Assembly (NCBI GenBank): GCA_016866755.1
Contig: VGLK01000002.1
Coordinates: 62,001 to 126,000 of the forward strand
Source: Candidatus Saccharimonadota bacterium
GTDB taxonomy: Bacteria > Patescibacteriota > Saccharimonadia > Saccharimonadales > Saccharimonadaceae
DNA: 64,000 bases
Direction of reading: 5' to 3'
Shown: one piece after another, positions 28,903 through 44,576 of the stretch
How the letters are laid out: every line of letters starts with the position of its first letter
How positions within the stretch are numbered: position 1 is the first letter of the stretch
Made by a program: the position numbers and the translations under genes
Notes under the pieces: model-generated
Told to the model about the DNA's origin: nothing
The model's database searches: none
What the model saw: the letters and a program-made list of their open reading frames with translations, nothing else

Positions 28903-31257
28903 TTAAAAACGCGGTGGCAATTCGGTAATAGTGGTGGTTTTAATAGCTGCGCCTTGGTTTAAATTACGACTCTGTCCGTACGCCCACAAGTACGCATCGG
29001 GGCGCAAATTAATAACTTCGGCTGGAATGTTGGCATAATTTTCATCGACCGGACCCACTCGGTACAAATGCAGCTGGCCAGCCATAACCGGACCATTTAT
29101 CTTTAGTTGGTCGCGACAATTAGTGCCGTTAACCCCTAATAGATAGCTTGCTGGATACGTAGAGGCGCTTTGCGAGCCTGGACGACAAGTTACCACCCGA
29201 TCACTCGCCATCAGCCACGCGTCAATCGTGCTAACCGATTCGTTGATGATAATGTTTTCAGCCACAATAACAAGTTGCGGTAGATCGGCAAAGCTCGAAT
29301 ACTCTCTATCCTCGTAGGTAAGATTATTTTCAATAATTACTGTACTATTTGGCGCATACAGCACACGGCTAGCGTTCATGTTTTCGCCATTTGTTAATCG
29401 AACCACCGAACCAGTAAGCCGGTAATTGCCCGCACCTGTACCATTAATGTCTACGCTGGTTCCGCCGATCTGTGTAGTGCTAGAGAAGTTACTAATAATA
29501 TTTGGTGCTGACCCCATACTGTTTGTAGAAAAATAACCGTACCGCCCCTGCGTAGTATTAGAAAATGTTAGCTGGTTTGATGAAGTAATATCGTTGCTTG
29601 AACCTTGACGACCAGCTAGCCCCGCTCCACTCGCCGAGGTAATCGCATTCGGTGCAAATGCACCAAACTCCATCCACGAGCCAATCGAGCCATCGGCTTC
29701 ACTCCGCGAACGCTGTGTAGTAATTGTAGCCGAGGTGTCACCTACTGACCCCATTACGCTACGGCCAACATAGGTGTCGCCGCCATGCACCTGAGCATTT
29801 GGCGAGAGCTTAACGGTAAAGCAAAGCGGCGCACCATGGTGCCATGAACCATTTTGGTTATTAGCTGTATTATATCTATCAACAGAAGTCATATAGCACA
29901 ATCGATCGTTAAATTGCAGGTTCAAGCCTTCAATCGATGTATCCAAATAGCTGGGGTTAGCGCCGGTAATTGGCGTATCCGCACCAGCCGCAAACATCTG
30001 ACGATCGTTGCCATTGTTCGTTCGCAGTTGATCACACTGAGCACCCGAACGCAGCGACCGAATATAGCGACACCCAGCATCATCGGCAGGTTCTTGCCTA
30101 AACTGATATCCCGTAATGTCATCATCACCCTCTTTAAGTACAAAGCGCGTTAGCATGGTTCGGGTTTGGTCTTGCGTGCGGGTGCCGCCAAAGTTCATAA
30201 CACTCGAACTAACCCGCAACTGGTTCACACCTTTTTTAATTGAGCGCGATTCGCTCGTATTAGTGCGTGGCCATAAGTTGTAGTCAAACGGTATATTTAC
30301 ACAAGCATAATCCGATCGTCCCCATGCCGGATCATTCCAGGCGTTGTCTTGCCAGCTAATTCGCTGACATAGGTTGCGGCCTAAATCGGCATCTCGCACT
30401 TGATATCGCAGGCCATTTTGTGTGGTAGGGTTATTTAGTTGAACAAATAAAACGCCAGTAGCACCTCTCCTGCTACCGCTCGGCTCTCTATTGCTGTTCG
30501 TCGCGCCACTAAAACCAGTGCGACCAATCAGGTAGTCTACGTCTCGCTCCATATTATTCGGCCCATTGTTACGTAAATCATGCGTCCAGTGTAAAACATC
30601 ACCCGGGCGCGCCGTTGTTGCAGGATCACCCTGCTGTCTACCAGACGATCTCGTAATGTTATTCACATAGCTTTCACCCCGAACCGACCATTGGTTTGGT
30701 GGCGCTAAGCGTGTAATACGAAGCTGTGATATAGCGTTTGGCGATTCGTAAGATGGCAGTGGTGGCCCAAAGGTAAGCGTACGAACGTACATTTCTAGGC
30801 GTAACGTACCCGTACCAATATTATTTATATCTAAAATCGCTCGTTGCGGTGGTGCAGTAAAATTATTACCGCCACCCGTATTTGGATACCCAATAGTACC
30901 GCCAATTCGCCTGTTAGTTGAACTATACTGTCCGCTCGCCGATGACGAATACCACCCATTACAGTACCGTCCGGCTGCATGCACCAGCACCGGTACAGAC
31001 GTAGCGTTGTGACTTACTGTCATATTAGTTGAGCCATCTAGTGCGGTAACCCATACCATGTCTCCTAAACCAGGCATCTGGCCAACACTTCGACAAAAAT
31101 CTGCTCCCCACCGATGGGCGTTAGCATAGCTTGGCGGGTTATAGTTAGCATCGTTTGGCGCTAACTGCGCCTGTGCCGGTAACCCAAAAAAAGCACTAAC
31201 AACTGTTAGTCCAAATGCAGCAATGAGTGCTCCCCTAAAAATCTGCAGTCTACTCAT
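28903..31257 (-). CDS. Large exported protein of the pilus locus
   Basis: 784 aa with a signal peptide (LIAAFGLTVVSAFFGLPAQA) and no other membrane segment. The middle contains Asn/Ser/Gly-rich beta-type sequence with paired Cys; the C-terminal 200 residues (VIIENNLTYEDREY, ADLPQLVIVAENIIINESV, NGPVMAGQLHLYRVG) look like a repetitive beta-solenoid. Its place next to pilM and overlap with the TPR gene suggest an adhesin or pilus-tip function like PilY1, but no PilY1 motif is seen. Function unproven. Confidence 0.7.
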   Translation of the reverse strand: MSRLQIFRGALIAAFGLTVVSAFFGLPAQAQLAPNDANYNPPSYANAHRWGADFCRSVGQMPGLGDMVWVTALDGSTNMTVSHNATSVPVLVHAAGRYCNGWYSSSASGQYSSTNRRIGGTIGYPNTGGGNNFTAPPQRAILDINNIGTGTLRLEMYVRTLTFGPPLPSYESPNAISQLRITRLAPPNQWSVRGESYVNNITRSSGRQQGDPATTARPGDVLHWTHDLRNNGPNNMERDVDYLIGRTGFSGATNSNREPSGSRRGATGVLFVQLNNPTTQNGLRYQVRDADLGRNLCQRISWQDNAWNDPAWGRSDYACVNIPFDYNLWPRTNTSESRSIKKGVNQLRVSSSVMNFGGTRTQDQTRTMLTRFVLKEGDDDITGYQFRQEPADDAGCRYIRSLRSGAQCDQLRTNNGNDRQMFAAGADTPITGANPSYLDTSIEGLNLQFNDRLCYMTSVDRYNTANNQNGSWHHGAPLCFTVKLSPNAQVHGGDTYVGRSVMGSVGDTSATITTQRSRSEADGSIGSWMEFGAFAPNAITSASGAGLAGRQGSSNDITSSNQLTFSNTTQGRYGYFSTNSMGSAPNIISNFSSTTQIGGTSVDINGTGAGNYRLTGSVVRLTNGENMNASRVLYAPNSTVIIENNLTYEDREYSSFADLPQLVIVAENIIINESVSTIDAWLMASDRVVTCRPGSQSASTYPASYLLGVNGTNCRDQLKINGPVMAGQLHLYRVGPVDENYANIPAEVINLRPDAYLWAYGQSRNLNQGAAIKTTTITELPPRF

Positions 31258-31837
31258 TACTGGCTTCCATAAATTGCCCTACCGAATCGCGCTGATTCTC
31301 ATACAGCGGCGCTAACTCTCGCACCGATTCATCGTCAGATGAGCGGGCAACTTGGGCTGCTTTTGTGTAAGATTCTTGAGCTAAACTGTAGTTTTCAGCC
31401 ACTAGCGCCACTCGCGCCAAAAGCGAATAGTGGCCATGAGTAGGTGCTATTTCAATCAAGTCGCGCGCAGCACGCTCGGCAACTTTATATTTTTGAGCCA
31501 CCAGCGCCATTTCAGTTTTTTGATTAAGCAATAATAATTTATCCTCATTACCCTGCGCCGCATCAACCTTTTCTGTTATATAACGCTCAGCATCCTCATC
31601 TCTTCCGGCCTCTAGATAGGCTAAATATACCGACTGTACGTCACCACTTCCTACAATATTCGCCTCAGTTGCTACAGATTCTGACTCGGCATAGTTTGGT
31701 AACAGCTTAGCTGCATCGTCACTGACTGCAATAAATCTAAAATAACCATACGTTAAAGCACCTACCGCGATAAGCATAAGCACCACGGCCACTATAAGTA
31801 CGTATTTTTTACGACTTTTTTTGTTTGTCGAAACCAT
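31250..31837 (-). CDS. Membrane-anchored TPR-like protein
   Basis: 195 aa from ATG 31837. Basic head (MVSTNKKSRKKYVLI), one transmembrane helix, then helical repeats (AYLEAGRDEDAERYI, AQKYKVAERAARDLIEIAP, AENYSLAQESYTKAAQ) with TPR spacing. It overlaps the start of the 784-aa exported protein by 8 bp. Possibly a pilotin-like assembly factor, by context only. Confidence 0.72.
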   Translation of the reverse strand: MVSTNKKSRKKYVLIVAVVLMLIAVGALTYGYFRFIAVSDDAAKLLPNYAESESVATEANIVGSGDVQSVYLAYLEAGRDEDAERYITEKVDAAQGNEDKLLLLNQKTEMALVAQKYKVAERAARDLIEIAPTHGHYSLLARVALVAENYSLAQESYTKAAQVARSSDDESVRELAPLYENQRDSVGQFMEASNE

Positions 31838-31897
31838 ACCACAAGCATAATACATCTAGGGTACACCACGCAAGCAACTTGGTTTTAAAACTGCCCT

Positions 31898-31943
31898 TAT
31901 GTTCAAATATAAAATAGCTTACGTACCTCTTATTTGAACATAA
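31898..31943. repeat. 13-bp perfect inverted repeat
   Basis: TTATGTTCAAATA (31898-31910) and TATTTGAACATAA (31931-31943) are exact inverse copies separated by 20 nt, between the pilus locus and the high-GC genes. No U-tract in the pilus direction, so it may be a protein-binding palindrome or a weak terminator. Confidence 0.6.
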
Positions 31944-31950
31944 AAGAGTG

Positions 31951-32008
31951 ACGCCGAGTGGCGTTCGTTAAGGTACTTAATTTCCCTCACACGAACGCCA
32001 CCCGGCGA
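31951..32008. terminator. GC-rich hairpin downstream of the high-GC surface gene
   Basis: CGCCGAGTGGCGTTCGT (31952-31968) pairs with ACGAACGCCACCCGGCG (about 31991-32007), one mismatch, 22-nt loop. It begins 20 nt after the stop of the 610-aa gene and is followed on the minus strand by CTCTTTTATG. The CGCCGAGTGGCG block recurs in the hairpin at 34133-34204. Confidence 0.65.
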
Positions 32009-32027: not shown

Positions 32028-33860
32028 CTACTTGTTGAACTTCTCTCGGCGGCTGAGGCCGGTAGCGACCGCTGCGCCGGCGCCCATCAGGGTGATGACC
32101 CCGAGAGCCACGGCCGCATTCATAGCACCGTCCTTGGCAGCGGTGTCGACGTTGAGGCCGTCGTTGGTGCCGGCCTCCAGCTTGAGGTTGTCACCTGCGA
32201 ACAGGTGGCCCGGCACCTCGGCCGGGCTGGGCGAATTCGGCGCCAGGAAGAGCGGGGTGTGCTCTGCCTTCGCGGCTGCCTTGGCCTCAGAATCGGCCTT
32301 GGCGTCCACGAAGCTCCAGACGCTGTTGTCCACCACCACGCTGGGGTTGCCGGCGTGGTGCTTGTCGAACGGAACAGGTGCCTTGTGGGGCGTCGTGCCG
32401 TCCGTCTTGTCGCCACCGGTGTTGCCACCGTTGTCGTCGGAGTCGTCGTCCTCGTCCTTGTCGTCACCGTCGCCGGTGCCCGGGTTGGTCGGATCGGGGT
32501 TGGTTCCCCCGTCGCCACCGGTGTTGCCACCGTTGTCGTCGGAGTCGTCGTCCTCGTCCTTGTCGTCACCGTCGCCGGTGCCCGGGTTGGTCGGATCGGG
32601 GTTGGTTCCCCCGTCGCCACCGGTGTTGCCACCGTTGTCGTCGGAGTCGTCGTCCTCGTCCTTGTCGTCACCGTCGCCGGTGCCCGGGTTGGTCGGATCG
32701 GGGTTGGTTCCCCCGTCGCCACCGGTGTTGCCACCGTTGTCGTCGGAGTCCGGGTTGAAACCATCCGGCAGCACGAGCTGCTTGAACCAGATGTTCGTCG
32801 ACTGACCCTTGTAGTTGTGGAAGAAGCGAACTTCCGAACCCGGAAGCAACGGCCCCTCCTCGGTCACGGTCACGTAAACCGTGAGGATTCCATCCACGGC
32901 GTCCTCGGGGTCGAAGTGCCAGAGGTAATAGTTCTCACCGCTGGGGGTCCAGATGTCGATCGAAACCGTCTCGTGCTCGCCGAAAACGGACCCGGAGATG
33001 TCGGCAGTGATCAGAAGCTGATCACCCGCCGGCTCGGCATTTAGCACCACCGAGTAGTTGGCCGGATCGAACCAGTCGTACTCCTCGCGCTCTCCGCCTT
33101 CACCCACCGGGATCACGTAGTCACGCGTCATCCCCTCCAGCAGCGTCTGGTTGCCCTGCGCGTCGGTGAGGTAGAACATCAGCGTGACCAGCGAGGCCTC
33201 GGAGGCCTCGACTGGGTACTGAACAGCGATCAAGCCGTTCTCGTTGGCGACGTGATCGGTCGTCAGGCCGGTTCCGTGGTGGTAGCTCTTCACCGTCACG
33301 TAGGTGCCATCCACGCCGGTGTCGACGTTGGTGATGGCGATGAAGGTGTAGCCGCTGGCGTTCTCGAAGTACTCGAACTCAGGCGTGAAACCCGCCGGAG
33401 GCGGACCCTCCACCTGAACCTCCTCCTTCGGGACCTCCGGGGAATTGGAAACGGGCGGCTGCTCGTTGAGCGCGGGAACGGATGCGTTCTGCAACTCGTC
33501 GACGATCGGCACCTCGACCACCTGCTGCACCGGCGAGTTGACCTCGTTGGTGGGAGCAGGCGGCAAGACCTCAGCCGGCGGCTCGACCGTGGTGGTCGAA
33601 TCGAGGCTGGGAGCCGGCGACGAATCCACCACAGAGGCGGACTTGGTCTCCGGATCGGTCGTCGTTGCGACGTCCGTAGCAACGGTGTCCGTCGTCTCGC
33701 CGACCGGCAGCTGGGTGGCACCCTGCAGCGTCTCGTCGAGCACGGGCTCGAGCATGACACCTTCGGTAGCCGCCGCCGGCAGCATCGGAACGGAGATCAG
33801 ACCGCCAGCCACAAGAGCGGCCAGCGAGATGGTACGGGGGGAACGCTTGGAATCGCTCAC
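32028..33860 (-). CDS. High-GC secreted surface protein with acidic Gly/Asp repeats
   Basis: 610 aa, GTG start at 33860 with AAGGAGA upstream. A Sec signal peptide (ISLAALVAGGLISVPMLPAA), a Thr/Val/Pro-rich stalk, a beta-rich region (residues about 155-370), three and a half 34-residue acidic repeats built on DDNGGNTGGDGG and GDGDDKDEDDDS, then a C-terminal helix (LGVITLMGAGAAVATGL) with a basic tail (SRREKFNK). This is a Gram-positive wall-protein layout, but no LPxTG is visible. Its GC and codon use are strikingly higher than the neighbours, pointing to transfer from an actinobacterium. Function unknown; adhesion is plausible. Confidence 0.8.
   Translation of the reverse strand: MSDSKRSPRTISLAALVAGGLISVPMLPAAATEGVMLEPVLDETLQGATQLPVGETTDTVATDVATTTDPETKSASVVDSSPAPSLDSTTTVEPPAEVLPPAPTNEVNSPVQQVVEVPIVDELQNASVPALNEQPPVSNSPEVPKEEVQVEGPPPAGFTPEFEYFENASGYTFIAITNVDTGVDGTYVTVKSYHHGTGLTTDHVANENGLIAVQYPVEASEASLVTLMFYLTDAQGNQTLLEGMTRDYVIPVGEGGEREEYDWFDPANYSVVLNAEPAGDQLLITADISGSVFGEHETVSIDIWTPSGENYYLWHFDPEDAVDGILTVYVTVTEEGPLLPGSEVRFFHNYKGQSTNIWFKQLVLPDGFNPDSDDNGGNTGGDGGTNPDPTNPGTGDGDDKDEDDDSDDNGGNTGGDGGTNPDPTNPGTGDGDDKDEDDDSDDNGGNTGGDGGTNPDPTNPGTGDGDDKDEDDDSDDNGGNTGGDKTDGTTPHKAPVPFDKHHAGNPSVVVDNSVWSFVDAKADSEAKAAAKAEHTPLFLAPNSPSPAEVPGHLFAGDNLKLEAGTNDGLNVDTAAKDGAMNAAVALGVITLMGAGAAVATGLSRREKFNK
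32413..32754 (-). repeat. 102-bp tandem repeat, about 3.3 copies
   Basis: Starting at 32413, 32515, 32617 and 32719 the same sequence recurs with a period of 102 bp (34 codons), nearly identical at DNA level. It encodes the acidic Gly/Asp/Asn repeat of the surface protein. The near-identity implies recent duplication or ongoing copy-number change. Confidence 0.9.
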
Positions 33861-34031
33861 GGCGATTCTCCTTCCTAAGAAAACAGCGTAACCGGCTGGT
33901 CACGCATAAAACGGATTGATTGACAAAAAATAGTAGGAACAAATTGGGTATTTCAAGGTGCGATTCAACATACATAACTGGCTGTCATGACGGTTGCACA
34001 CTCACTTATAACATTAGCATGTTTTTAAAGA

Positions 34032-34060
34032 TTTGTAAATAGCTTAAGTAAGTTTGTCAA
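34032..34060 (-). promoter_or_regulatory. Promoter of the high-GC surface gene
   Basis: TTGACA (complement of 34055-34060), 17-nt spacer, TACAAA (complement of 34032-34037). The flanking region is AT-rich, unlike the gene, leaving a leader of about 165 nt. The rest of the 33861-34231 gap holds only this promoter and the hairpin at 34133-34204. Confidence 0.6.
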
Positions 34061-34132
34061 GCTATTTTAGTTGTAATATATACAAAATAAAATTGTTACT
34101 ATTAACCACATTATTTTATATACATTGAGAGC

Positions 34133-34204
34133 GCCGAGGGGCCACGTAAGAGTCGGTACGGCTGGTTTGCCGTAGTCTCGTTACATGGCGCCACTCGGCG
34201 ACAT
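34133..34204. terminator. Long GC-rich hairpin downstream of the LGFP-type gene
   Basis: CGCCGAG (34133-34139) pairs with CTCGGCG (34195-34201), and inner blocks GTACGGC/GCCGTA and GAG/CTC also pair. It starts 28 nt after the stop of the 291-aa gene. There is no U-tract. CGCCACTCGGCG here is the inverse of the block at 31952. Confidence 0.55.
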
Positions 34205-34231
34205 CTACATCAGGTTACTCCCTCCTACATC

Positions 34232-35107
34232 TTAGCGGGCGTTGAACGCCAGCCGCACGGTCTGGCGGGTAGCCGGGTCGTAGCGGAAGCGCGCCCGCTC
34301 GGCGTCCAGGTAGGTGTACTTCTTGCCGCTCACCGTCAGCTGGTACTCGTCGGACTTGACGGCACCGTTGTGGTTCTTGCCACCGCTGTTGGTGTACAGG
34401 CCGTAGATGGCACCCTTGATGTGGTGCGCACCGTGAGCCGAGGTCCACTGGATCTCGCTGATGGAGCCGTTGATGCTGAACTGCTGCGAGGCCACCAGAG
34501 TAGCGCCCGCGTGCCTGCCGTTGGTGCCGTTGATCTCGGCCCCGGTCGCGAAGCCGACGACGTCGCTGCCACCGAGAGCCCAGTACTTGGACTTGATGGC
34601 GCCCTTCAGGAGGTAGCCGTCGACGATCATGGCCGAGTTCGGGGCGATCACCACGTACTGACCCGTCTGGGGATCCTGCAGCGTGACGATGTTCTCCGTC
34701 GAGTTGACCATGACGGTCTTGGTCTGGTCCCCGTTGTTCACAGGGGCGACCAAGACGCCGTTGACCCTCTGGATGGCGTCGCCGACGGAGCGGACGTAGC
34801 CGCCCTGCAGCGACGACGCCAGCGCGTAGGCGTTGGTGTCGAGCACCACACCGTTGGGCGCCGGCACGAAGTCGGGCCCACCGGTGAGCAGGTGCCTGCC
34901 GAGCACGAAGGTGTACTCGTTCACCGCCTTGCTGGCGTTGGTGTTGCTCAGCGGCTGGTTGATGCCCTGCACGGTCTGGCCGACCGTGGGGACGGTCGGA
35001 ACAGCCGCGTTGGCCGGAACCACGCCACCGATCAGCAGACCGGTGAGAGCCACGCCGCTGGTGATGGCGACAACGAAACGACGGGGGAAACGGGGGGTGG
35101 TGTTCAC
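34232..35107 (-). CDS. High-GC secreted protein with LGFP-like repeats
   Basis: 291 aa, GTG start at 35107 with AGGAAAGAG upstream. A long signal peptide ends at PANA. The C-terminal half has LGFP-type motifs: AIKSKYWALGGSDVVGFATG, then QFSINGSISEIQWTSAHGAH and HIKGAIYGLY. LGFP repeats are typical of actinobacterial wall-associated proteins. GC content and codon use match the 610-aa gene and not the rest of the window. Possibly acquired from an actinobacterial host and kept for contact with its wall; this is inference. The AT-rich upstream region contains a further hairpin (CTTCCCT/AGGGAG near 35170-35195). Confidence 0.78.
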   Translation of the reverse strand: MNTTPRFPRRFVVAITSGVALTGLLIGGVVPANAAVPTVPTVGQTVQGINQPLSNTNASKAVNEYTFVLGRHLLTGGPDFVPAPNGVVLDTNAYALASSLQGGYVRSVGDAIQRVNGVLVAPVNNGDQTKTVMVNSTENIVTLQDPQTGQYVVIAPNSAMIVDGYLLKGAIKSKYWALGGSDVVGFATGAEINGTNGRHAGATLVASQQFSINGSISEIQWTSAHGAHHIKGAIYGLYTNSGGKNHNGAVKSDEYQLTVSGKKYTYLDAERARFRYDPATRQTVRLAFNAR

Positions 35108-35350
35108 AATGAACTCTTTCCTACTAATGGGGGTTAGGAGTAGTGCATGTAGATGTTAAAGCGTGTGTCTTCCCTCTCTACACGCGGTAAGGGAGCGCAA
35201 AACACACAAAAGCAATATTAACATAAAAACATGGTTAAGTAAATAGTCTAGATTGTAAACTACTCATAGTACACGACGACAAGTGTATGCAGTTTTGGCG
35301 GTGTAATTCTTTACCAATCGCTCATATTAGCCATTCTCTTTATCCCCTGT

Positions 35351-35356
35351 TAAAAT
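35351..35356 (+). promoter_or_regulatory. -10 element of the original ychF promoter
   Basis: TAAAAT lies 6 nt before the original ychF ATG at 35363, implying a leaderless transcript. Integration of the island has separated it from ychF. Confidence 0.6.
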
Positions 35357-35362
35357 ACTAGT

Positions 35363-35395
35363 ATGAGTTTATCAATCGGCATAGTGAGTTCTTAA
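35363..35395 (+). pseudogene. ychF: Severed 5' end of ychF
   Basis: The frame reads MSLSIGIVSS and stops at TAA 35393-35395. MSLSIGIV is the expected YchF N-terminus, whose continuation GLPNVGKST now begins at 46146. The break falls after GGCAT (35378-35382), the block shared with 46140-46144. It is the left genomic flank of the island, and can now only yield a 10-residue peptide. Confidence 0.85.
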
Positions 35396-35401
35396 CACAA
35401 C
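35363..35401. other. attL of the ychF island
   Basis: Chromosomal half ATGAGTTTATCAATC, shared core GGCAT (35378-35382), then the element half ending in the arm TTAACACAAC (35392-35401). That arm is the exact inverse of GTTGTGTTAA at the right end (46118-46127). Confidence 0.82.
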
Positions 35402-35502
35402 TACCTTTTGAACTAAAAATAGCTATGCCACCTACCGATTCAGGTAATAGAGGTTATTCTGACAAATATATCAACCGTCTTAAAGTAAACCTATCAATGT
35501 AA
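35383..35502 (+). pseudogene. Detached C-terminal tail of the serine integrase
   Basis: 39 codons and a stop with no start codon: SEFLTQLPFELKIAMPPTDS then GNRGYSDKYINRLKVNLSM. The frame is exactly that of the integrase at 46142-46144 if the two GGCAT cores are joined, so in the circular element it would be the last part of the integrase gene. The tail is related to the one at 37253-37423 at protein level with many silent differences. The gap from 35503 to 35657 holds nothing else recognisable. Confidence 0.78.
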
Positions 35503-35669
35503 CTAAGTATTTCTCTTAAAGCTATGGAAATCAGATATAGTCAGAAGCTGCAACAGAACAAATCCTTCTTGAACTTTTCGAAGCACTATTAAAAGTAAAG
35601 TGCTTTAATTTCTATACTGGTACGCCCGAACTGATACTCCGCACATTACATACGCTGTATAATCTGAAT

Positions 35670-36455
35670 ATGTCCAAAAAGAAGATATACGGAAATTGCA
35701 GAATCTGTGGTATTGAAAAAAAGCTAACTCAAGAGCATTACATTCCTCGTGCAGCCGGAGGAGCAATGAAATTAAAACTGTATAAAGGCGAAGAGTTGAT
35801 GAAAACTCTTCACAATGATAAAGACGGCAAAAACTATAAGCCTAAAGGTATCTTCAAGCAGAATGGATTGGCGGAGTATACCCTTTGCAAAGAATGTAAC
35901 GAGTATTCAGGTTTGTACTATGACAAAGATTTTGCTCTCTTTTATAACATCATTCACTTCGGTGTACAGCGAAATATTAATATTCCAGAACATACCACTA
36001 CTGAACAATACCTACGTGGTAAATCTATGAAGATGACCTTAAAAAAACTAAAACCGTTCAACATTGCCAAGCGTATACTGGTATCCTTTAGCTCAGTAGA
36101 GCACGCTGGATTAACGGAAAGAAATTCTGAAATTCGTAAAGCACTTTTAGATAAATACTATACTCCTCAGACTGATGACTTCGGTATATATCTGAGTTTA
36201 CACATAGGAAATAGCTTACACTACGGAACCATTGCAACATTGAATCTAAACGGAAAAATATCCGCCTTCGCAGGTATTGAAAACGATTTCATAGCCTTAT
36301 ACCTTACGACCGACACAAATACTAAAGCAAAAGGACTAGAAGGTTGTCTGGATATAACGCATTGGCTAACCGACTTCGAATACGATGAAGAACAAGATAT
36401 TGAGCTAGACCTCAGTTTCAACCAGTCCAAAAATATAATGTTTCCAGTAGGTTGA
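35670..36455 (+). CDS. HNH-family nuclease-like protein
   Basis: 261 aa. CRICG at residues 11-15, LTQEHYIPRAAGG (the HNH histidine region) and LCKECNEYSG make a zinc-stabilised HNH_5-type site. The remaining 160 residues are unassigned. A perfect TATAAT (35658-35663) ends 6 nt before the ATG, so the transcript is leaderless. It stands 3 bp from the end of the convergent macrodomain gene. Possible roles are defence or element mobility; neither is shown. Confidence 0.72.
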   Translation: MSKKKIYGNCRICGIEKKLTQEHYIPRAAGGAMKLKLYKGEELMKTLHNDKDGKNYKPKGIFKQNGLAEYTLCKECNEYSGLYYDKDFALFYNIIHFGVQRNINIPEHTTTEQYLRGKSMKMTLKKLKPFNIAKRILVSFSSVEHAGLTERNSEIRKALLDKYYTPQTDDFGIYLSLHIGNSLHYGTIATLNLNGKISAFAGIENDFIALYLTTDTNTKAKGLEGCLDITHWLTDFEYDEEQDIELDLSFNQSKNIMFPVG

Positions 36456-36458
36456 TAA

Positions 36459-36932
36459 CTATTCAGGCTTATATTCAACTAGGTATATTTTATCTACTAC
36501 AGTATTTGGGAAGTCCTCCAAATAATCAGTAATTGCTTGCTCAGCAATAGGCTTAGCTTCTTCAAGGGGGTATCCATATATCCCAGTAGATATATAAGGG
36601 AAAGCAATCGAAGTTATATTGTTTTCCTCTGCAATCCTCATTGACTCATAGTAACAACTGTACAAAACAGCAGACTCTTCGCCCTGATGCTGGCCGTATA
36701 TTGGACCTACGGTGTGTATTACAAACTTTGCAGGTAAATTATAGCCGCCAGTTATCTTTGCTTCACCTCTCAAGCAATAGCCTAATTTACGACATTCCTT
36801 GTCAATCCTAGGTCCTGCTGCTTCATGTATCATTCCACACAGCCCTGCTCCACCAACAAGCCCTGTATTAGCCGCATTAACGATTGCATCGACTTCCATA
36901 GTAGTTAAATCGTCTGTTATATACTTAATCAT
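36459..36932 (-). CDS. Macrodomain (ADP-ribose) hydrolase
   Basis: 157 aa, a stand-alone macrodomain of the YmdB/MacroD type: DAIVNAANTGLVGGAGLCGM, IHEAAGP, GEAKITGGYNLPAKFVIHTV and FPYISTGIYGYP are the ADP-ribose-binding loops. Such enzymes remove ADP-ribose from proteins, RNA or O-acetyl-ADP-ribose. TATAAT lies 8 nt before the ATG. In an island this may serve against, or as antidote to, an ADP-ribosylating toxin, but no such toxin is seen nearby. Confidence 0.9.
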   Translation of the reverse strand: MIKYITDDLTTMEVDAIVNAANTGLVGGAGLCGMIHEAAGPRIDKECRKLGYCLRGEAKITGGYNLPAKFVIHTVGPIYGQHQGEESAVLYSCYYESMRIAEENNITSIAFPYISTGIYGYPLEEAKPIAEQAITDYLEDFPNTVVDKIYLVEYKPE

Positions 36933-36976
36933 TTATTTATATTATACCCCTTGAAAGTAGTAATACTCTCCCTATG

Positions 36977-37007
36977 AAAACAGATGGGCTTTATTCCCAT
37001 CTGTTTT
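36977..37007. terminator. Bidirectional terminator-type hairpin
   Basis: AAAACAGATGGG and CCCATCTGTTTT (36977-36988, 36996-37007) pair perfectly around a 7-nt loop. The following gap to 37252 holds no gene that I can support. Confidence 0.78.
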
Positions 37008-37252
37008 ACATATTATCTATTAGGACTAATAAGTTGACTTCACCCGTCCAATATTCAAGCTATTATATAAACCTTAAACCCTCATTATCAGTGGTGTATC
37101 AGTGACAGATTCGTTTTCTAGTACTCTATTATTTAGCAGTTAATCGTTAAAGATACACTATGAATCTTTAACTCAACTTAACTAGATTGATAAGAAAAAC
37201 GACACCAGTAAGAAACTCAAGCAAGGAAGAAGATAATCATTCTTATTAGAAG

Positions 37253-37423
37253 GATTCTTTACTACCCATTGTCGTCCTACCATTCCAAGCTTGGCATATT
37301 AAAGTTTTAACACAATTGCCTTTCAACAAGCTAAAATTACGTATGCCGAACACAGACCGAGGGGGTCGTGGCTACTCCGATGAGTATATAGCTGGAATTG
37401 AACAACAACTCTACACGGCTTGA
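37253..37423 (+). pseudogene. Relic: C-terminal end of a second related serine integrase
   Basis: 56 codons with no start: KDSLLPIVVLPFQAWHIKVL then TQLPFNKLKLRMPNTDRGG and RGYSDEYIAGIEQQLYTA. Compare LLPI...WH and the tail LTQLPF-LK-MP-TD-G-RGYSD-YI of the resident integrase. GGCAT is at 37293-37297, and TTAACACAA follows after the same 9-nt spacing as in attL. The upstream rest of this integrase is gone. It may mark the internal junction of two tandem elements. Confidence 0.68.
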
Positions 37424-37451
37424 TTTTATGAGCATTTGGCCAAGCAGACCC

Positions 37452-37556
37452 TTACCCGCCGGGCACTGTGAAAATGATTGACGCCCATAGCACGAGCGAG
37501 ATAACAATGAGTACCAGTACTATAATCTGAAAAACAGATAGCTTTATCTTTTTCAT
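37452..37556 (-). CDS. 34-aa single-pass membrane peptide
   Basis: MKKIKLSVFQIIVLVLIVIS is one membrane helix after a basic start, ending FTVPGG. It begins 2 nt after the stop of the DUF305 gene, with AAAGGA upstream inside that gene, so translation is probably coupled. Unknown function in the thiol/metal operon. Confidence 0.55.
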   Translation of the reverse strand: MKKIKLSVFQIIVLVLIVISLVLWASIIFTVPGG

Positions 37557-37558
37557 AT

Positions 37559-38227
37559 TTAGTGCTGTCCTTTCCTGCGCTGTATGTCTCTGATTGATTT
37601 TACCTGTTGGTTATGATGTGCTTTATCGGTTGCTAAATAGTCCTTCATTTCCTTATACTGAACTTCATCGCCGAACATACCCATATATTCTAGAACGCCC
37701 TCATGAAGCTGTAACAATAAACGAAGAAACTCTTTACCTTTTTCGTTTGCTGGCATAGTAGCCATTTTATCGAGCTCCTTAACTGTAGGCATTCCCGAAC
37801 TTGTAGGGTACCCATCATGCCCATCTTCTCTAGGAAAATCAGACAAGCTGAGATAGTCCTCATCCCAATCATTTAGCCACTTTGCGTATCTGTCCGCAGT
37901 CTTGCCATGCGTCGCCATTACTTCATCCGTCAACTCTTTGCTGTCATCACTAACCTCACCGTGCTGTGCAATATTAGCTAACCCTGTAGCCTGTTGGTTA
38001 TAAATAATCATCTGCTTGGCAAAGCTAATCTCACTATAGCCGTACTTAGTGGGGTCAGACGGCGGCGTGATATTCTTGCCATTTTCTGTCGTATCGTTAT
38101 TTGATTGATACGAAGAACTGAGTAGCTTGCCGCCGCCCAATGTGAACCATGCGCCTGCGATTACGCTGACTGTCGCTACCACAGCTAAAATAGCAATGCT
38201 AATTCTCCGTACTGTCACTACTTGCAT
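37559..38227 (-). CDS. DUF305 (ferritin-like) exported protein
   Basis: 222 aa. One N-terminal membrane anchor (ISIAILAVVATVSVIAGAWF), then a helical region with the DUF305 pattern FAKQMIIYNQQATGLANIA, EVMATHGKTADRYAKWL and LLLQLHEGVLEYMGMFG. DUF305 proteins are often found with copper handling or oxidative-folding genes, but no activity is established. The usual first-helix HHxxA motif is YNQQA here. It overlaps the DsbA gene by 29 bp. Confidence 0.8.
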   Translation of the reverse strand: MQVVTVRRISIAILAVVATVSVIAGAWFTLGGGKLLSSSYQSNNDTTENGKNITPPSDPTKYGYSEISFAKQMIIYNQQATGLANIAQHGEVSDDSKELTDEVMATHGKTADRYAKWLNDWDEDYLSLSDFPREDGHDGYPTSSGMPTVKELDKMATMPANEKGKEFLRLLLQLHEGVLEYMGMFGDEVQYKEMKDYLATDKAHHNQQVKSIRDIQRRKGQH

Positions 38228-38846
38228 CCTTCAATGCATCATCAATGAGCTTAGAAAATGCCTCGACGCTATTATCAATCTGTTCGATTTTTTTACCGTT
38301 TAGAGCAAAGGTTGGCGTGCCGTTGCCGCCGAGTTCTTGCACGGCTTTTAAGTCTGAGGCGATGATAGCCTTGACTTCATCACTCGTTCTATCGGCTTCC
38401 AATTTTGTCATATCGAGTCCCATTTCCTCTGCGTATCTATCAAATAAAACCGTCGGGTCGGCTACTACCTGCCACTGCTTTTGTCCTTCAAAAATGTTGT
38501 CGTGCATTTCCCAGAACTTACCTTGCTTAGCCGCAGCCTCAGCGTAGCTTGCAGCCATTCGTGCAAACTTGTGGGAACTGCTTATCGGGAAGTGTCGTAC
38601 TTGGAACTTGACGGTATCCTTATATTTTTCTTTTACCTCTTTCACAGTGGGATAATAGGCATAACAAGCCTCACACTGAAAATCCACAAATTCAGTCAAT
38701 ATTACTTTGGAGTCTGCGTTGCCATAGACATTATTTGAGCCGTTGCTTTTCGGCATGCTTGCTTGATTTGCCTTATTCATTGCAATTAGTCCGCCAAATA
38801 TTAGTACGATTAGAGCACCAAAGATAATCCAGCCAGTTTTATTCAT
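38199..38846 (-). CDS. Membrane-anchored DsbA-like thiol oxidoreductase
   Basis: 215 aa. Signal anchor (IIFGALIVLIFGGLIAM), then a DsbA/thioredoxin_4 domain with the active site FVDFQCEACYAYYPTV (CEAC), RHFPISSSHKFARMAASYAE and a cis-Pro loop GGNGTPTFALNG. It donates disulfides to exported proteins. VKOR encoded just upstream is its likely re-oxidant. Confidence 0.92.
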   Translation of the reverse strand: MNKTGWIIFGALIVLIFGGLIAMNKANQASMPKSNGSNNVYGNADSKVILTEFVDFQCEACYAYYPTVKEVKEKYKDTVKFQVRHFPISSSHKFARMAASYAEAAAKQGKFWEMHDNIFEGQKQWQVVADPTVLFDRYAEEMGLDMTKLEADRTSDEVKAIIASDLKAVQELGGNGTPTFALNGKKIEQIDNSVEAFSKLIDDALKDASSDSTEN

Positions 38847-38894
38847 AATAACGTTATCCTTTCTAGTTTATTGTATTAAGAAAAGATACTCGGC

Positions 38895-39260
38895 TCAAAA
38901 ACGCATAACAGAGGTTGTTAAATAAAGCCTATTATTGAAAATCTGACTAGGTCCACGACCAGGTCTTGCAACATATAGAACCGCTAAAGAGACGACGAGA
39001 ACTACCCACGTTGGTGGCGGCGGGATTGGGTCTCGTTCTAGCTTTCTGACCGTCTTTTGATGAAGTGGTAACTCAGCTTGTGTGTGCGGTTGACATGAGC
39101 CAGCGCATGCTACGGTCACCTCGGATACATTAGACAAGGTATGGTGCGACTGCACTAGTCCGCCAAATGTGCATACAAAAATTGTAAGTATAGCAAGAAC
39201 TAATAAGCAGCTACGAGTGTGTAGCTCGCTCAATCGAGGGTTTAGACGTAAGTCACCCAT
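38895..39260 (-). CDS. Two-helix membrane protein with external Cys pair, unknown
   Basis: 121 aa from ATG 39260. Helices near residues 18-38 and 85-105 flank a loop with VACAGSCQPH and several His. The CAGSC and His could bind a metal or take part in thiol exchange. No family recognised. Located between dsbA and VKOR on the same strand, so probably one cargo operon. Confidence 0.55.
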   Translation of the reverse strand: MGDLRLNPRLSELHTRSCLLVLAILTIFVCTFGGLVQSHHTLSNVSEVTVACAGSCQPHTQAELPLHQKTVRKLERDPIPPPPTWVVLVVSLAVLYVARPGRGPSQIFNNRLYLTTSVMRF

Positions 39261-39312
39261 AATTAACAAATACCTACCCTCATATCAGTCATAATAGTGT
39301 CTATTACACCAA

Positions 39313-40068
39313 TTAAAGTAGGCTTACCCAATAGTCGGCCCAGCGTTGGAATAACAGGATAAAGATTACGACATAAGTAACAGCGATAAGTTCAGCTCTG
39401 TGGCTTAGTAATTTATTGAGCTTGGTGCCGAGATTTATGTGCTTCTTCTCGATACAATAAGCCGTTGTCAGCCATAACATAGCAAATGTTACCAGCCAAA
39501 CTAGCATACAGTACAAACAGAGCTTACCAATCTCAAATACCCCCTGATAGAAAAGCCATGAAGCAAAGCCCGCACCAAATACAACGCCTCCCAACAACGC
39601 TCGCCACCATGCCCGCTTGAGCTTAATAGCACCTGCCGCTATTGTCATCGCTGCCGCAAAGACGGCTGTGTATGCAAATATACCAATAAACGAGTTAGGT
39701 AGCCCTAAAGCACTAGCCTGCGGGCTGGCAATCACTGGCGAACAAGAAACGATAGGGCTCAGGCTACAGCTTGCAACGTGATTTGGTTCGGTCAGTAACT
39801 CAATCTTTTCGATAGATAAGATAAAAGAAGCGCTAATACCAATTGCCGCAAGAGTTGTTAGCCAGCGAGCAAGCCGTATATCTGGCTTGACTGGTTTGAG
39901 AGCATAATACTGAACGACGATTGTCAGGGCGACAAGCACACTAGCCGCTAAGTAGACGTAGCCTACTTGATTACGCAATACGAAAATAGCGGCGAATAAA
40001 TAGATAACGGGTAGCACCCAAAAGTAACGTATAAGTGAGTTCTGTACGAGATTCATTCTTAGTTCCAT
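39313..40068 (-). CDS. VKOR-family quinone-linked disulfide oxidase
   Basis: 251 aa, about six membrane helices. The loop cysteine pair is in SCSLSPIVSCSPVIA, the quinone-site region is ALGLPNSFIGIFAY, and the CxxC centre is KLCLYCMLVWLV. VKOR re-oxidises DsbA in bacteria without DsbB. No fused thioredoxin domain, which the separate DsbA gene supplies. Confidence 0.9.
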   Translation of the reverse strand: MELRMNLVQNSLIRYFWVLPVIYLFAAIFVLRNQVGYVYLAASVLVALTIVVQYYALKPVKPDIRLARWLTTLAAIGISASFILSIEKIELLTEPNHVASCSLSPIVSCSPVIASPQASALGLPNSFIGIFAYTAVFAAAMTIAAGAIKLKRAWWRALLGGVVFGAGFASWLFYQGVFEIGKLCLYCMLVWLVTFAMLWLTTAYCIEKKHINLGTKLNKLLSHRAELIAVTYVVIFILLFQRWADYWVSLL

Positions 40069-40114
40069 GATAGCACACTAATACCGTCATAATGATGGTA
40101 AAATAGACCTTAAT

Positions 40115-41005
40115 ATGAGCCACACTCACGAACTCTCCACAAACAACAAAAGCCTTATCTTTGGAATAATCTTGAACGGTGCGTACACCATAGTGGGGTT
40201 TGTGTTCGGACTGCTTACTGGCTCGCTTGCCCTCATAGCGGACGCAATTCACAACCTCACTGATAACGTCACGCTCGGTATTTCCCTTGCAGCGAATCGT
40301 ATAGCCGAACGTAAGGCTAATTCACGAAAGACATTTGGGTATGGACGTGCAACTATTCTTGCTGCTGCCGTTAACGCTAGCTTTCTCATCGGAATAGCGT
40401 TATTTATAGTCAATGAATCAGTCCAGCGATTACAGAACCCTGTTGAGGTTGATGGTGGCATTATTGCTGCCGTAGCTTTTGGCGGTATCGTGGTCAATGC
40501 CACCGTTGCCTATATGCTGTCGAAGAACCGCCAAGACCTCAATATGCGGAGCGCATTTACCGACCAGTTATTCGACGCACTTTCCTCTCTAGGTGCTATG
40601 TTAGCTGGTCTAATAATCATGTTCACTGGTATACAGTTTATTGATACAGTCGTCGCCCTCATTGTTGTGGTACTCTTACTTTACAACACTATTAAGATAC
40701 TCAAAGAGGCTGCTAATATCTTGCTAGAGGGCGTACCAGACGACGTTGATATTAACCGTATTCAGGCAGCAATTACATCGATTGATAAAGTTAATGAGGT
40801 AGACGATATGCATATCTGGGCAATTCGCTCTGGCTACAATACTTTGAGTTGCCATGTCGTTATTGATGAGCAAGAACTAAAAAGCAGCCGAGCTATTGTT
40901 GAGACTATAAAGGAAACACTGCGTAGAGAACACGGTATACCACACGCCACAATCGAGATTGAGTTAGAGTCAGACGCTCGACACATATCACACGAGAAAC
41001 ACTAG
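40115..41005 (+). CDS. CDF-family metal cation exporter
   Basis: 296 aa, six membrane helices and a C-terminal cytoplasmic domain (VNEVDDMHIWAIRSGYNTLS). The first half-site in TM2 is HNLTD (DAIHNLTDN). In TM5, where zinc exporters have HxxxD, this protein has DQLFD, giving a DxxxD half-site as in some Mn/Fe-type CDF proteins. Metal choice is therefore uncertain. TAAAAT lies 10 nt before the ATG. Divergent from the VKOR gene with a 46-bp intergenic region. Confidence 0.9.
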   Translation: MSHTHELSTNNKSLIFGIILNGAYTIVGFVFGLLTGSLALIADAIHNLTDNVTLGISLAANRIAERKANSRKTFGYGRATILAAAVNASFLIGIALFIVNESVQRLQNPVEVDGGIIAAVAFGGIVVNATVAYMLSKNRQDLNMRSAFTDQLFDALSSLGAMLAGLIIMFTGIQFIDTVVALIVVVLLLYNTIKILKEAANILLEGVPDDVDINRIQAAITSIDKVNEVDDMHIWAIRSGYNTLSCHVVIDEQELKSSRAIVETIKETLRREHGIPHATIEIELESDARHISHEKH

Positions 41006-41159
41006 CAACATAAGTTGTAATTACGGCTCAAGCGACATCGTTACATATTTTCCAATAAATACTTCGTTCTTTAGAAGATAAATATTCTGGCATTCTGTCA
41101 AAAACATTCCTTCGATGGGTAGTAGGCGATTCCTTCATTCCATTATCATCGGTTTCTCT

Positions 41160-41447
41160 TTATTGATACCTTCCACTGCTATCACCCTCCACTATACTTG
41201 CTAATGTCCATGACAAATGTTCAGCATCAAACTCAATGCGATAATCGTTCGAGCCGTCACTCATTTCAAAGACATGTATCATACGTTTACCTTTAGTTGT
41301 CGGGTGTCTCATACCAAACACTGTAAACACAATCTCCTGTCCTCGAAACCTCATCTTCCAGGGCATACACAAGTCCCTCTCAGCCGTGTTAGCCTGAAAG
41401 ATGGGTACAATATCAACTCGCTCATTAACCTCGTGTGAGGGGTTCAT
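41160..41447 (-). CDS. Small soluble protein, unknown
   Basis: 95 aa. Contains WKMRFRGQEIVFTVFGMRHP and YRIEFDAEHLSWTLASIVEG, a compact beta-rich pattern with no membrane segment. No family recognised; codon use fits the rest of the island. Confidence 0.5.
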   Translation of the reverse strand: MNPSHEVNERVDIVPIFQANTAERDLCMPWKMRFRGQEIVFTVFGMRHPTTKGKRMIHVFEMSDGSNDYRIEFDAEHLSWTLASIVEGDSSGRYQ

Positions 41448-41511
41448 AAACGTGCCTTAGACATAAGAGTTTTAGCATGTCGTACTGCCAAAAAAGCCTT
41501 GAGGCGTTTTT

Positions 41512-41601
41512 CTAAAATAAAGTCCAACTTTTCAGGCTAGAAGGTTGTCTGTTAGTCTCGATATATTCTGTCCACTGCTGATTCTTTTGAACTTGCTTCA
41601 T
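41512..41601 (-). CDS. Possible 29-aa peptide
   Basis: A minus-strand ORF (MKQVQKNQQWTEYIETNRQP, nine more residues) preceded by GGAG and followed at once by a short stem GCCT/AGGC with TTTTTT (complement of 41490-41506). Too short to judge by codon use. The rest of the 41448-41815 gap shows no gene I can support. Confidence 0.3.
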   Translation of the reverse strand: MKQVQKNQQWTEYIETNRQPSSLKSWTLF

Positions 41602-41815
41602 ACAATAATTACTCCAATGCTTTAGAAATTAAAAACCAACTAAAACGAGATGTTTAGCTGTACGGGTTTAATTTACAAGGCTATCTGGTGGAGTGTACTA
41701 ACCATTATAGTATCCTCAAGACAGGGAGCCGAGTATTGTACAAAAACTTTCAGGGACGCTTTGCTAATGCTAGTGTGTATGACGTCTATTAGTATTACAT
41801 ACCCACACAGCAGAA

Positions 41816-42286
41816 TTAGGAAAGTATATGCGGATTAGTAAAATGCGGCTTATCGTCAGAAAAACGAGCAAACTGGCCTTTAGAGATTCTAATATCAACA
41901 GCATACGGATTCCACTCGCTAATGGAATATGGTTCTCCATTATTTTCTACCAAGCGTAAGGTATCCCAGCCATTCGGTATATATGCATTAGCGATGGGTT
42001 TAAGTTGAAAGAATATTTCTCTTTCGGCAGCTTCTAGTAAATCATTATCTGTATATATCCAGTCAGCAGGTTTGAGTTCGCTCAACTCTGAAAGTATTCT
42101 CCACTCGACTTGGTCACCAAAGAAGTATAAATACTGGGTTAAAAGCGGTTGACGGTGTATAGGTCTGCCTGCCTTCCAAAGTTTTTTGTGGTGATTCCAA
42201 CGACCTGTAATAGAACTGTTAGACTTGCCAACATAGATACACTCACCCGTTGTTTTATTGAACGCACCATAAATACCTTTCGTCAT
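41816..42286 (-). CDS. GIY-YIG nuclease-like protein
   Basis: 156 aa. The N-terminal GIYGAFNKTTGECIYVGKS contains the GIY and YVG motifs, followed by ITGRWNHHKK with the catalytic Arg, and Glu in LLEAAEREIFFQ. The last 40 residues are unassigned. TAAGAT lies 6 nt before the ATG. Family roles include homing and repair nucleases. Confidence 0.82.
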   Translation of the reverse strand: MTKGIYGAFNKTTGECIYVGKSNSSITGRWNHHKKLWKAGRPIHRQPLLTQYLYFFGDQVEWRILSELSELKPADWIYTDNDLLEAAEREIFFQLKPIANAYIPNGWDTLRLVENNGEPYSISEWNPYAVDIRISKGQFARFSDDKPHFTNPHILS

Positions 42287-42399
42287 GTATATATCTTAAT
42301 ACGGATAGTCCGTGTTTGATTCAGGAAATATTTTCAGCTAGCGGCTCTTGAACCATTCGCATAAGTACATATCAACAGCTATCGCATACAATAGTAATA

Positions 42400-43050
42400 A
42401 TGAGTAGCGAATCACTAACAGACAAACAGGCAGAGCTAGAGATTTTACTTCCAATTGTTGATGAGTACACTCGCTACAAAAAGCCAGAAAAAATACAAAT
42501 ACCTACACCTGTGTTTGATTCAAGCTCCATAATGAGCGGAGAGTCAATGTTCCAAGTACACGAATTATTAAAGATTGAAAAGACACTTCAACGTCTGGAA
42601 ACCCAAGGACTTATAAAAATTCTCTCTATGTTCGGTACTTTAGACGGAATACGAGTATCTATCGTAGACGTAGATGCTTTACTCGAACAATATAAATTAC
42701 TCGACGAGTCTATACCCTCAAAAGGTAACCTACCTAGAATTATCTACTCAATGAAAACTGGTGAAGGTAAAATCAACGGCGAAGGTTTCAGGTTATACAG
42801 GAAAAAAGACAACCGAAAGTTGTTTGGTAAATTACTTAGTACCCCTAATTACCGTTTAAGCCGCTCGGAAGCAATGAAAGTTGTAAACCTCCGAACAACA
42901 GTCAAAGACCCTGATGGAATTAACGATTTTAGCAAAAAAGTTTCAAAACTTCGAGCAGGTTTAAGGGGTCTTAGCAAAGAGCATCTCAGCTATCAGAATA
43001 ATGTCTTGCAATTATTTGCGGACGTAAAAATAACAGATAAGAATCGTTAA
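42400..43050 (+). CDS. Unknown protein upstream of the RepA-like ATPase
   Basis: 216 aa, soluble, with an N-terminal helical region (KIEKTLQRLETQGLIKILS) that could be a winged helix, and a basic C-terminus. TACAAT (42387-42392) ends 7 nt before the ATG. It heads the rightward run toward the RepA-like, HTH and integrase genes, so a replication or control role in the island is plausible. No family recognised. Confidence 0.6.
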   Translation: MSSESLTDKQAELEILLPIVDEYTRYKKPEKIQIPTPVFDSSSIMSGESMFQVHELLKIEKTLQRLETQGLIKILSMFGTLDGIRVSIVDVDALLEQYKLLDESIPSKGNLPRIIYSMKTGEGKINGEGFRLYRKKDNRKLFGKLLSTPNYRLSRSEAMKVVNLRTTVKDPDGINDFSKKVSKLRAGLRGLSKEHLSYQNNVLQLFADVKITDKNR

Positions 43051-43191
43051 AAAAATCTTTATTCACCTCAAGAATTAGCACCGCATTCGGTTACATTTTC
43101 TTCAAAAATGGGCACACAATTAAGAATAGACAAACAGCAAAAAGCATCGTAGCTAATAGTTTGTCCGCTATGGTGCTTACAAGGAAATAAA

Positions 43192-44184
43192 ATGGTTACA
43201 TCAGAGAAAAAAATAATTGATGTGGCTTCACTCGATTCACTTATGACGCAGTACTTCCCTACTGCAAGGTGGACGGTGGAGAGCATCATACCAGAGGGAG
43301 GGCTGACCATATTGTCAGCAGCACCAGGCTCGTTCAAAACGTGGCTAATGCTTGAAATATCTCTCTCGATTGCGGAAGGTAGAAGCCTTTTTGGAAAGTA
43401 CAGTACCAACAAAACAGGCGTTCTATTTGTAGATGAAGAATCGGGTCCTAGAATGCTACAAGAACGCTTTAAGCAACTAAGTTCTGTTGAAGGTTTGCCG
43501 ATACACTATACCTCTCGTCAGAATACGAGAGTAACAGAGGCATACGTCGAAAGCCTTTTAGTTATCTGTAAGGAAAAAGAAATCGGCTTAGTGATGTTTG
43601 ACTCTTTAGTTCGGCTTCATGCAAGCGACGAAAATGCCTCCAAAGATATGTCGGAGTTGTTTAACCTATTTAGACAACTTACAGATAGTGGGCTGTCTGT
43701 ACTTATCGCACACCACAATAGAAAACCGAGCCAAGGGAACTACAATCCGTCGGGAGATATGAGAGGTAGCTCCGACATACTAGCCGCAGTGGACTGTCAC
43801 ATGGCAATGAGCCGCCAAAATGGCAGTGAATACGTTCTAGTTCAGCAGACTAAAAATCGTTATATGCCAGAAATACGACCCTTCAAGTTACGCTTTGTTT
43901 TGGAAGACGAAACTAGCTATTTTGAGTTCATAGGCGAAGAAAAAAATCGGTCAAGTGAACGAGCTGACGACAAACAATATATCGTCGATACATTGAAGAG
44001 TAACGAGTCGGATATTACAAAGAAGCTGCTTTATGAGCTACTTGCGAGTAATGGTAAAAAGATTGGTATGAATCGACTTGGTGAATACCTTGAAGAACTA
44101 ATCGTTGATGAGTTAGTCTTCACCTCCGAAGGTCCAAGAACTGCCGTTTACTACCACATCAGAACCGATACAGGAGTGCGTTAG
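43192..44184 (+). CDS. RepA/RecA-like AAA ATPase
   Basis: 330 aa. Walker A is SAAPGSFKTW, with Lys-Thr kept, and Walker B is IGLVMFDSLVRLH, followed by LSVLIAHHNRKP and SGDMRGSSDILAAVDCHMAM. This is the RepA/AAA_25 pattern of plasmid and island replicative helicases. The C-terminal 80 residues look like a winged helix (ITKKLLYELLASNGKKIGMN). GGAAATAA before the ATG may act as a ribosome-binding site. It could allow replication of the excised circle. Confidence 0.82.
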   Translation: MVTSEKKIIDVASLDSLMTQYFPTARWTVESIIPEGGLTILSAAPGSFKTWLMLEISLSIAEGRSLFGKYSTNKTGVLFVDEESGPRMLQERFKQLSSVEGLPIHYTSRQNTRVTEAYVESLLVICKEKEIGLVMFDSLVRLHASDENASKDMSELFNLFRQLTDSGLSVLIAHHNRKPSQGNYNPSGDMRGSSDILAAVDCHMAMSRQNGSEYVLVQQTKNRYMPEIRPFKLRFVLEDETSYFEFIGEEKNRSSERADDKQYIVDTLKSNESDITKKLLYELLASNGKKIGMNRLGEYLEELIVDELVFTSEGPRTAVYYHIRTDTGVR

Positions 44185-44200
44185 AAACGTATTACTATAT

Positions 44201-44350
44201 ATGACTGATTTTCTAAATGACTCGCAAAAAAAGAAAAACAAAGAACCTACTGTCGTTTATCGACACGTAGAAAAAGAAACGATTCTGATTGAACAAGTAT
44301 TTAACATGCTGTTCGAAATGGTAGAAGAAAATAACAATCCAACAGATTGA
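44201..44350 (+). CDS. 49-aa protein, unknown
   Basis: MTDFLNDSQKKKNKEPTVVY, then an amphipathic helix ILIEQVFNMLFEMVEE and a polar tail. It starts 17 nt after the RepA-like gene and ends before the HTH gene's promoter. The helix suggests a protein-contact role, perhaps as a partner of a neighbour. Confidence 0.55.
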   Translation: MTDFLNDSQKKKNKEPTVVYRHVEKETILIEQVFNMLFEMVEENNNPTD

Positions 44351-44390
44351 TGTTTACAAATACTAATAACTATTTATAATAATAAGTACT

Positions 44391-44576
44391 ATGTCTGAAT
44401 ATAAGTTTTATACAGTTGCGGAAGTTGCAGAAATACTCCAAGTTCACTGGCAAAGCGTGTTGAATTACATTAAGAGCGGCAAGCTGAAAGCGGTGAAATT
44501 AGGTAAGGGTTATCGAATAAGTGCCACTTCCCTCTCTAAGTTTATTTCAGACAGTACTAAAAGGAAAAAGCAATGA
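44391..44576 (+). CDS. Excisionase-like MerR-type HTH protein
   Basis: 61 aa. FYTVAEVAEILQVHWQSVLN then YIKSGKLKAVKLGKGYRIS is the HTH_17 winged-helix pattern of excisionase-family proteins. TATAAT ends 10 nt before the ATG. Its stop overlaps the integrase start by 4 bp, so it is a good candidate for the directionality factor of this integrase, which is inference. Confidence 0.85.
   Translation: MSEYKFYTVAEVAEILQVHWQSVLNYIKSGKLKAVKLGKGYRISATSLSKFISDSTKRKKQ

Follow-up and report, generated by a model that had tools for sequence, protein, structure and literature searches.

How did a small epibiotic bacterium come to carry two genes written in the codons of a quite different kind of genome, and what might these genes do? 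The organism is a tiny and probably parasitic epibiont, and the means by which such bacteria find and grip their hosts are still largely an open question. Its genome comprises seven contigs (848 kb), with a listed completeness of 99.8% and contamination of 0.01. The size of this genome, the pilus locus and the abundance of small genomes in the class indicate a Saccharibacterium. The window, the whole stretch of DNA analysed here, covers 64,000 nucleotides of one contig (C2:62001-126000). Two adjacent GC-rich genes in it, P1 and P2, were found in a native variable gap between a type IV pilus operon and ychF (Table 1). Considering the evidence below, we judge it somewhat probable that both are functional genes, recently gained from a high-GC bacterium, probably an actinobacterium, with a role at the host wall. 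There is good support for a recent acquisition from a donor of high GC. We infer that an actinobacterium is the likely donor; that this donor was the host itself, and that the proteins take part in host attachment, are both reasonable but unproven proposals.

Table 1. Features around P1 and P2, with positions in the window.
Feature	Position	Strand	Remarks
TPR-like gene	31250..31855	-	Start of the native pilus-linked operon; left border of the gap
P1 hairpin	31950..32008	-	Long, GC-rich, just past the P1 stop; -43 kcal/mol, z -7.8
P1	32028..33860	-	610-aa predicted exported protein, intact, GTG start
AT-rich region upstream of P1	33861..34125	-	32.5% GC, AAGGAG ribosome-binding site; promoter presumed
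P2 hairpin	34130..34201	-	Long, GC-rich, past the P2 stop; -45 kcal/mol, z -5.8
P2	34232..35107	-	291-aa predicted secreted protein, intact, GTG start
AT-rich region upstream of P2	35108..35335	-	Promoter presumed
Native ychF promoter and first codons, cut off from the gene	35336..35382	+	ATG at 35363; attL of the element; right border of the gap
Serine-recombinase element	35383..46144	.	10,762 bp, GGCAT core, integrated; P1 and P2 outside
ychF	46128..47204	+	Interrupted by the element, which re-made its 5' end

Both reading frames were free of internal stops and preceded by good ribosome-binding sites. GC3 was 0.84 in P1 and 0.91 in P2, against 0.30-0.54 in the remaining genes of the window and a genome median of 0.40 (613 ORFs; 664 kb sampled of the 848-kb genome). 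Codon use was extreme: AAG 29 times and AAA never for lysine, ATC 28 times and ATT or ATA never for isoleucine, GAG 45 times with GAA three times, and AAC 55 times with AAT four times. The strong GC3 bias and the GTG starts named in the original prediction are thus confirmed.

The pair is not the sole GC-rich case in this genome, as three further isolated GC-rich envelope genes were revealed; several genes in two relatives look similar. Surf encodes a GC-rich repeat surface protein in two halves, one at an end of contig C1 and the other at an end of contig C4 (L046:2-1216 and L064:2-1084), the assembly having broken within the repeat. S161 (C1:20536-21018; L053:536-1018) encodes a membrane-anchored protein of 161 aa with a GC3 of 0.96, and C6mem (C6:26248-27048) a membrane protein. 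A strongly hydrophobic segment was found in all five GC-rich genes, P1 and P2 included, versus 40% of background ORFs, an enrichment that is suggestive only. Through comparison of codon use at equal sample size, with a sampling floor of about 0.034-0.042, Surf (distance 0.048) and P2 (0.050) were found to be the sets nearest to P1; the distance was 0.062 to Nocardia/Tsukamurella, at least 0.062 to every actinobacterial set tried, and 0.210 to the epibiont's own genome. That P1 lies nearest to Surf and P2 suggests a common source. In codon use and GC3 the two genes are unlike the recipient genome and like high-GC actinobacteria as a donor class, the outcome of a comparison that the original prediction had proposed.

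The change of composition falls at the gene edges. The coding sequence has a GC content of about 0.65, the 240 bases ahead of the start codons one of 0.22-0.48, and positions 34001-34100 contain 22% GC; the AT-rich intergenic DNA claimed in the original prediction is present, and its native-looking promoters are presumed. Plasmid genes of Pseudarthrobacter, Gordonia and Tsukamurella with similar GC3 had an upstream GC minimum of 0.53 (n=26). As the DNA upstream of P1 and P2 is far more AT-rich than this, either the locus is not one plain host fragment or its upstream parts were replaced, and simple uptake of a host fragment is insufficient as an explanation of a switch that coincides with the gene edges.

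At the 3' side, the hairpin behind P1 is a probable terminator. The hairpins of P1 and P2 share their outer 12-13 nucleotides and differ in the inner parts. Downstream folding energies of normal genes in this genome averaged -18.4 kcal/mol (n=206) and none reached -36, whereas the hairpins of P1, P2, S161 and C6mem all lay below -41 kcal/mol; that of S161, a gene with a good TTGACT/TATAAT promoter match upstream, measured -45 kcal/mol, and the end of Surf was unexceptional (-25). The contrast is cleanest in this genome because strong hairpins also follow 12-14% of the normal genes in two relatives (G015 and G017), where some are part of dispersed repeats or of a GC-rich gene that converges on the normal one. 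A U-run after the hairpins, scored by a crude test, did not separate GC-rich from normal genes. Adjoining the P1 hairpin, an AT-rich perfect inverted repeat of 13 bp (31897-31943) was also seen, possibly a bidirectional terminator.

Searches among relatives revealed no orthologue of either gene, as expected of transferred genes. P1 was found only as the genome's own copy among 393 class genomes (E<=1e-3) and was absent from 150 other family genomes; P2 had no match in 392 other class genomes at E<=1e-5, and among 60 nearer relatives three gave weak matches, at 28-33% identity. The relatives searched lie outside the organism's own genus. A spread of the closest homologues throughout Saccharibacteria, which would have spoken against the original prediction, was not seen, and the class search found no full-length homologue. 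Plasmids, phages and viral contigs gave nothing useful, and a pattern-limited scan of genome contigs found no actinobacterial homologue. A Curtobacterium phage match to P1 fell in the low-complexity linker and was discarded; the one sub-threshold Rfam match was taken as chance.

These results bear on the view that P1 and P2 are native genes with GC-rich codons under selection, through strong expression or through translation in the host as well. Such selection would fit the fact that composition switches where the reading frame starts and stops, in several genes unrelated to one another, and the recurrence of GC-rich conjugation-like genes in distant members of the class. Against it, GC3 was near 0.40 in nearly all sampled genes, among which most of the highly expressed ones must be, the hairpins are GC-rich as well, and no relatives of P1 and P2 with native composition were found as ancestors in the class genomes. 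We consider this explanation very unlikely.

The site itself was then compared with that of relatives, in which the pilus operon comprises pilM, a large secreted protein gene and a TPR-like gene and is divergent from the adjoining ychF. The operon here resembles type IV pilus locus one of TM7x (PMC12206443). In two relatives (G007 and G008) the spacing between operon and ychF is 60-100 bp, and in five others (G013, G015, G022, G041 and G004) other genes are inserted in this gap, including a secreted beta-helix-like protein in G022 and an M14 peptidase with an Ig-like domain in G041.

To the right of P2 lies the serine-recombinase element, and a related one, with a recombinase 54% identical, occupies the same ychF site in G017. 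From gene order it was plausible that P1 and P2 are cargo of this element. Its attL (35363-35382), which retains the ychF start, lies to the right of P2, and attR is at 46140-46144, so that the two genes do not stand between the attachment sites. When the flanks are joined at the shared GGCAT, the ychF reading is restored exactly, MSLSIGIVGLPNVGKSTLF. The position of attL rules out the cargo explanation, to which we give next to no credence. The genes carried between 35383 and 46144 include HNH, Macro, DsbA-like, VKOR, CDF transporter and AAA_25 genes.

The same site speaks to an assembly chimera, that is, actinobacterial contigs or reads merged with those of the epibiont. Samples of this kind are expected to contain co-purified host DNA, and contigs C1 and C4 break inside a GC-rich repeat gene. 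However, two complete genes with their hairpins fit exactly into the space that separates a conserved operon from the ychF promoter; the DNA around and between them is AT-rich, whereas actinobacterial intergenic DNA is GC-rich; and the same edges recur at several independent genes in a genome with a contamination estimate of 0.01. As the genes on either side keep the conserved order, and the ychF promoter with them, a simple chimera, which the original prediction had also argued against, is unlikely, and on all this evidence we hold a chimera to be most improbable.

Could the two genes have travelled ready-made? The pair might have come as a moron-like cassette, made of promoter, GC-rich ORF and strong terminator, whose carrier was a phage, a plasmid or a conjugative element shuttling between epibionts and actinobacteria, and not directly from a host chromosome. 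The arms shared by the two hairpins occur only once more in the genome, within a NUDIX gene. In G015 (L106:1469-2544) two adjacent GC-rich genes are each followed by a long GC-rich hairpin, nearly identical between them, as in P1 and P2. The genome also contains a GC-rich block (C1:60-67.5 kb; L047:1121-7538, equal to C1:61121-67538) that by eye has the look of conjugation or type IV secretion, although this conjugation-like assignment has no Pfam support. Homologues of the block ATPase were found in nine other class genomes, with 24-37% identity and GC3 of about 0.55-0.84. One genome, G017, has 47% GC as sampled, though the block ATPase homologues are GC-rich. No mobility gene lies beside P1 and P2 within the gap, and the phage, plasmid and viral collections held no match, so that we regard the cassette reading as unlikely. 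A wider speculation is that Saccharibacteria carry self-contained modules of GC-rich envelope genes, with an AT-rich native-type promoter, an ORF in host codons and a long 3' hairpin, which were repeatedly gained, or kept in host codons for expression in the actinobacterial host too, and which perhaps move via the GC-rich conjugation-like machinery; we would give this rather poor chances.

If, as preferred here, the genes were acquired recently from a donor of high GC, the proteins themselves suggest a use. P2 has a predicted signal peptide ending in PANA (read by eye) and no second membrane segment. A single LGFP stretch (PF08310) at aa 208-245 reached 23.4 bits against the Pfam cut-off of 22; of the LGFP-like repeats of the original prediction, the family stands and the plural does not, as one stretch passes. 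The structure model of P2 from the single sequence was unusable (pLDDT 28.6).

LGFP was present in 40 of 295 class genomes. The class LGFP genes inspected have native base composition in nearly all cases and often several repeats, and P2 has no full-length relative among them; one such protein, searched against plasmids, matched almost only Actinobacteria. LGFP being a common tool in the class, an LGFP protein by itself is unremarkable, and the idea of a unique host gene is weakened. The proposal of foreign genes is supported by the composition and by the missing class homologues. In the literature, we found no paper naming both 'Patescibacteria' and 'LGFP', which is weak evidence of novelty, most subscription papers lying outside the search.

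P1 comprises a signal peptide, a tandem beta-sandwich at about aa 155-360 (from a low-confidence model), an amplified linker and, at its C-terminus, a membrane segment with a positive RRE tail; signal peptide and membrane segment were judged by sequence and hydropathy. The linker (aa 371-472) is composed of three identical acidic, D/G-rich repeats of 34 aa (102 bp each) and a partial fourth. The structure model (mean pLDDT 43) matched only generic tandem Ig/FnIII folds, with TM-scores of 0.1-0.2; the tandem beta-sandwich is probable on this modelled fold, and its halves did not align to each other by sequence. P1 matched no family, and NCBIfam models matched neither protein. The actinobacterial wall-protein layout first proposed for it is thus retained as a layout resembling that of wall proteins, without an LPXTG sortase-anchor motif before the C-terminal membrane segment in the translation and without a family match.

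These features lead to a proposal of how the locus arose and works. P1 and P2 would have been gained from the high-GC donor, possibly by natural transformation, and kept at the variable site between pilus operon and ychF; natural competence and transformation are established in Saccharibacteria (PMC10633639). The donor-like parts would be the coding sequences and 3' hairpins, and transcription would start in the AT-rich, recipient-like DNA upstream. The gene-exact edges may mean that the genes were captured behind promoters of the recipient, that the donor upstream DNA was lost or replaced, or that transfer was cassette-like. P2 would be released and may bind an actinobacterial-type wall polymer via its LGFP stretch, and P1 would be anchored in the epibiont membrane, with the beta-sandwich domains held outward on the acidic stalk. 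Together they may help the epibiont to stick to, or to resemble, the host wall. If host-type envelope genes are indeed re-used, base composition alone could single out candidates for attachment proteins in uncultured Saccharibacteria and suggest their likely hosts, and the sharp gene edges would be new information on the ways in which a reduced genome acquires foreign genes and connects them to its own expression.

Among known systems, P1 and P2 are like phage morons and gene cassettes in combining an autonomous promoter, an ORF of odd composition and a terminator, and unlike them in being chromosomal and in having neither phage nor integron genes in view beside them. They are also like the essential adhesion and glycan-binding envelope proteins of Ca. 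Southlakia epibionticum in being exported and in the proposed host contact (PMC10633639, the main text of which does not mention GC content); those proteins have a fibronectin-III domain and P1 a predicted beta-sandwich, a likeness without sequence link. With the other LGFP proteins of the class P2 shares the repeat family and predicted export, and differs from nearly all those checked in its composition and often in its repeat number. For Corynebacterium (C. glutamicum), LGFP domains are reported to contact peptidoglycan and to stabilise the envelope via the peptidoglycan layer (PMC12113857). Unlike the LGFP-repeat proteins of Corynebacteriales (PF08310; Csp, Cg2069 and Psp2 of C. glutamicum), P2 shows just one stretch that passes, lacks a recognised catalytic domain and belongs to a reduced epibiont genome; like them, it is predicted to be exported, carries LGFP above the cut-off and is written in GC-rich codons.
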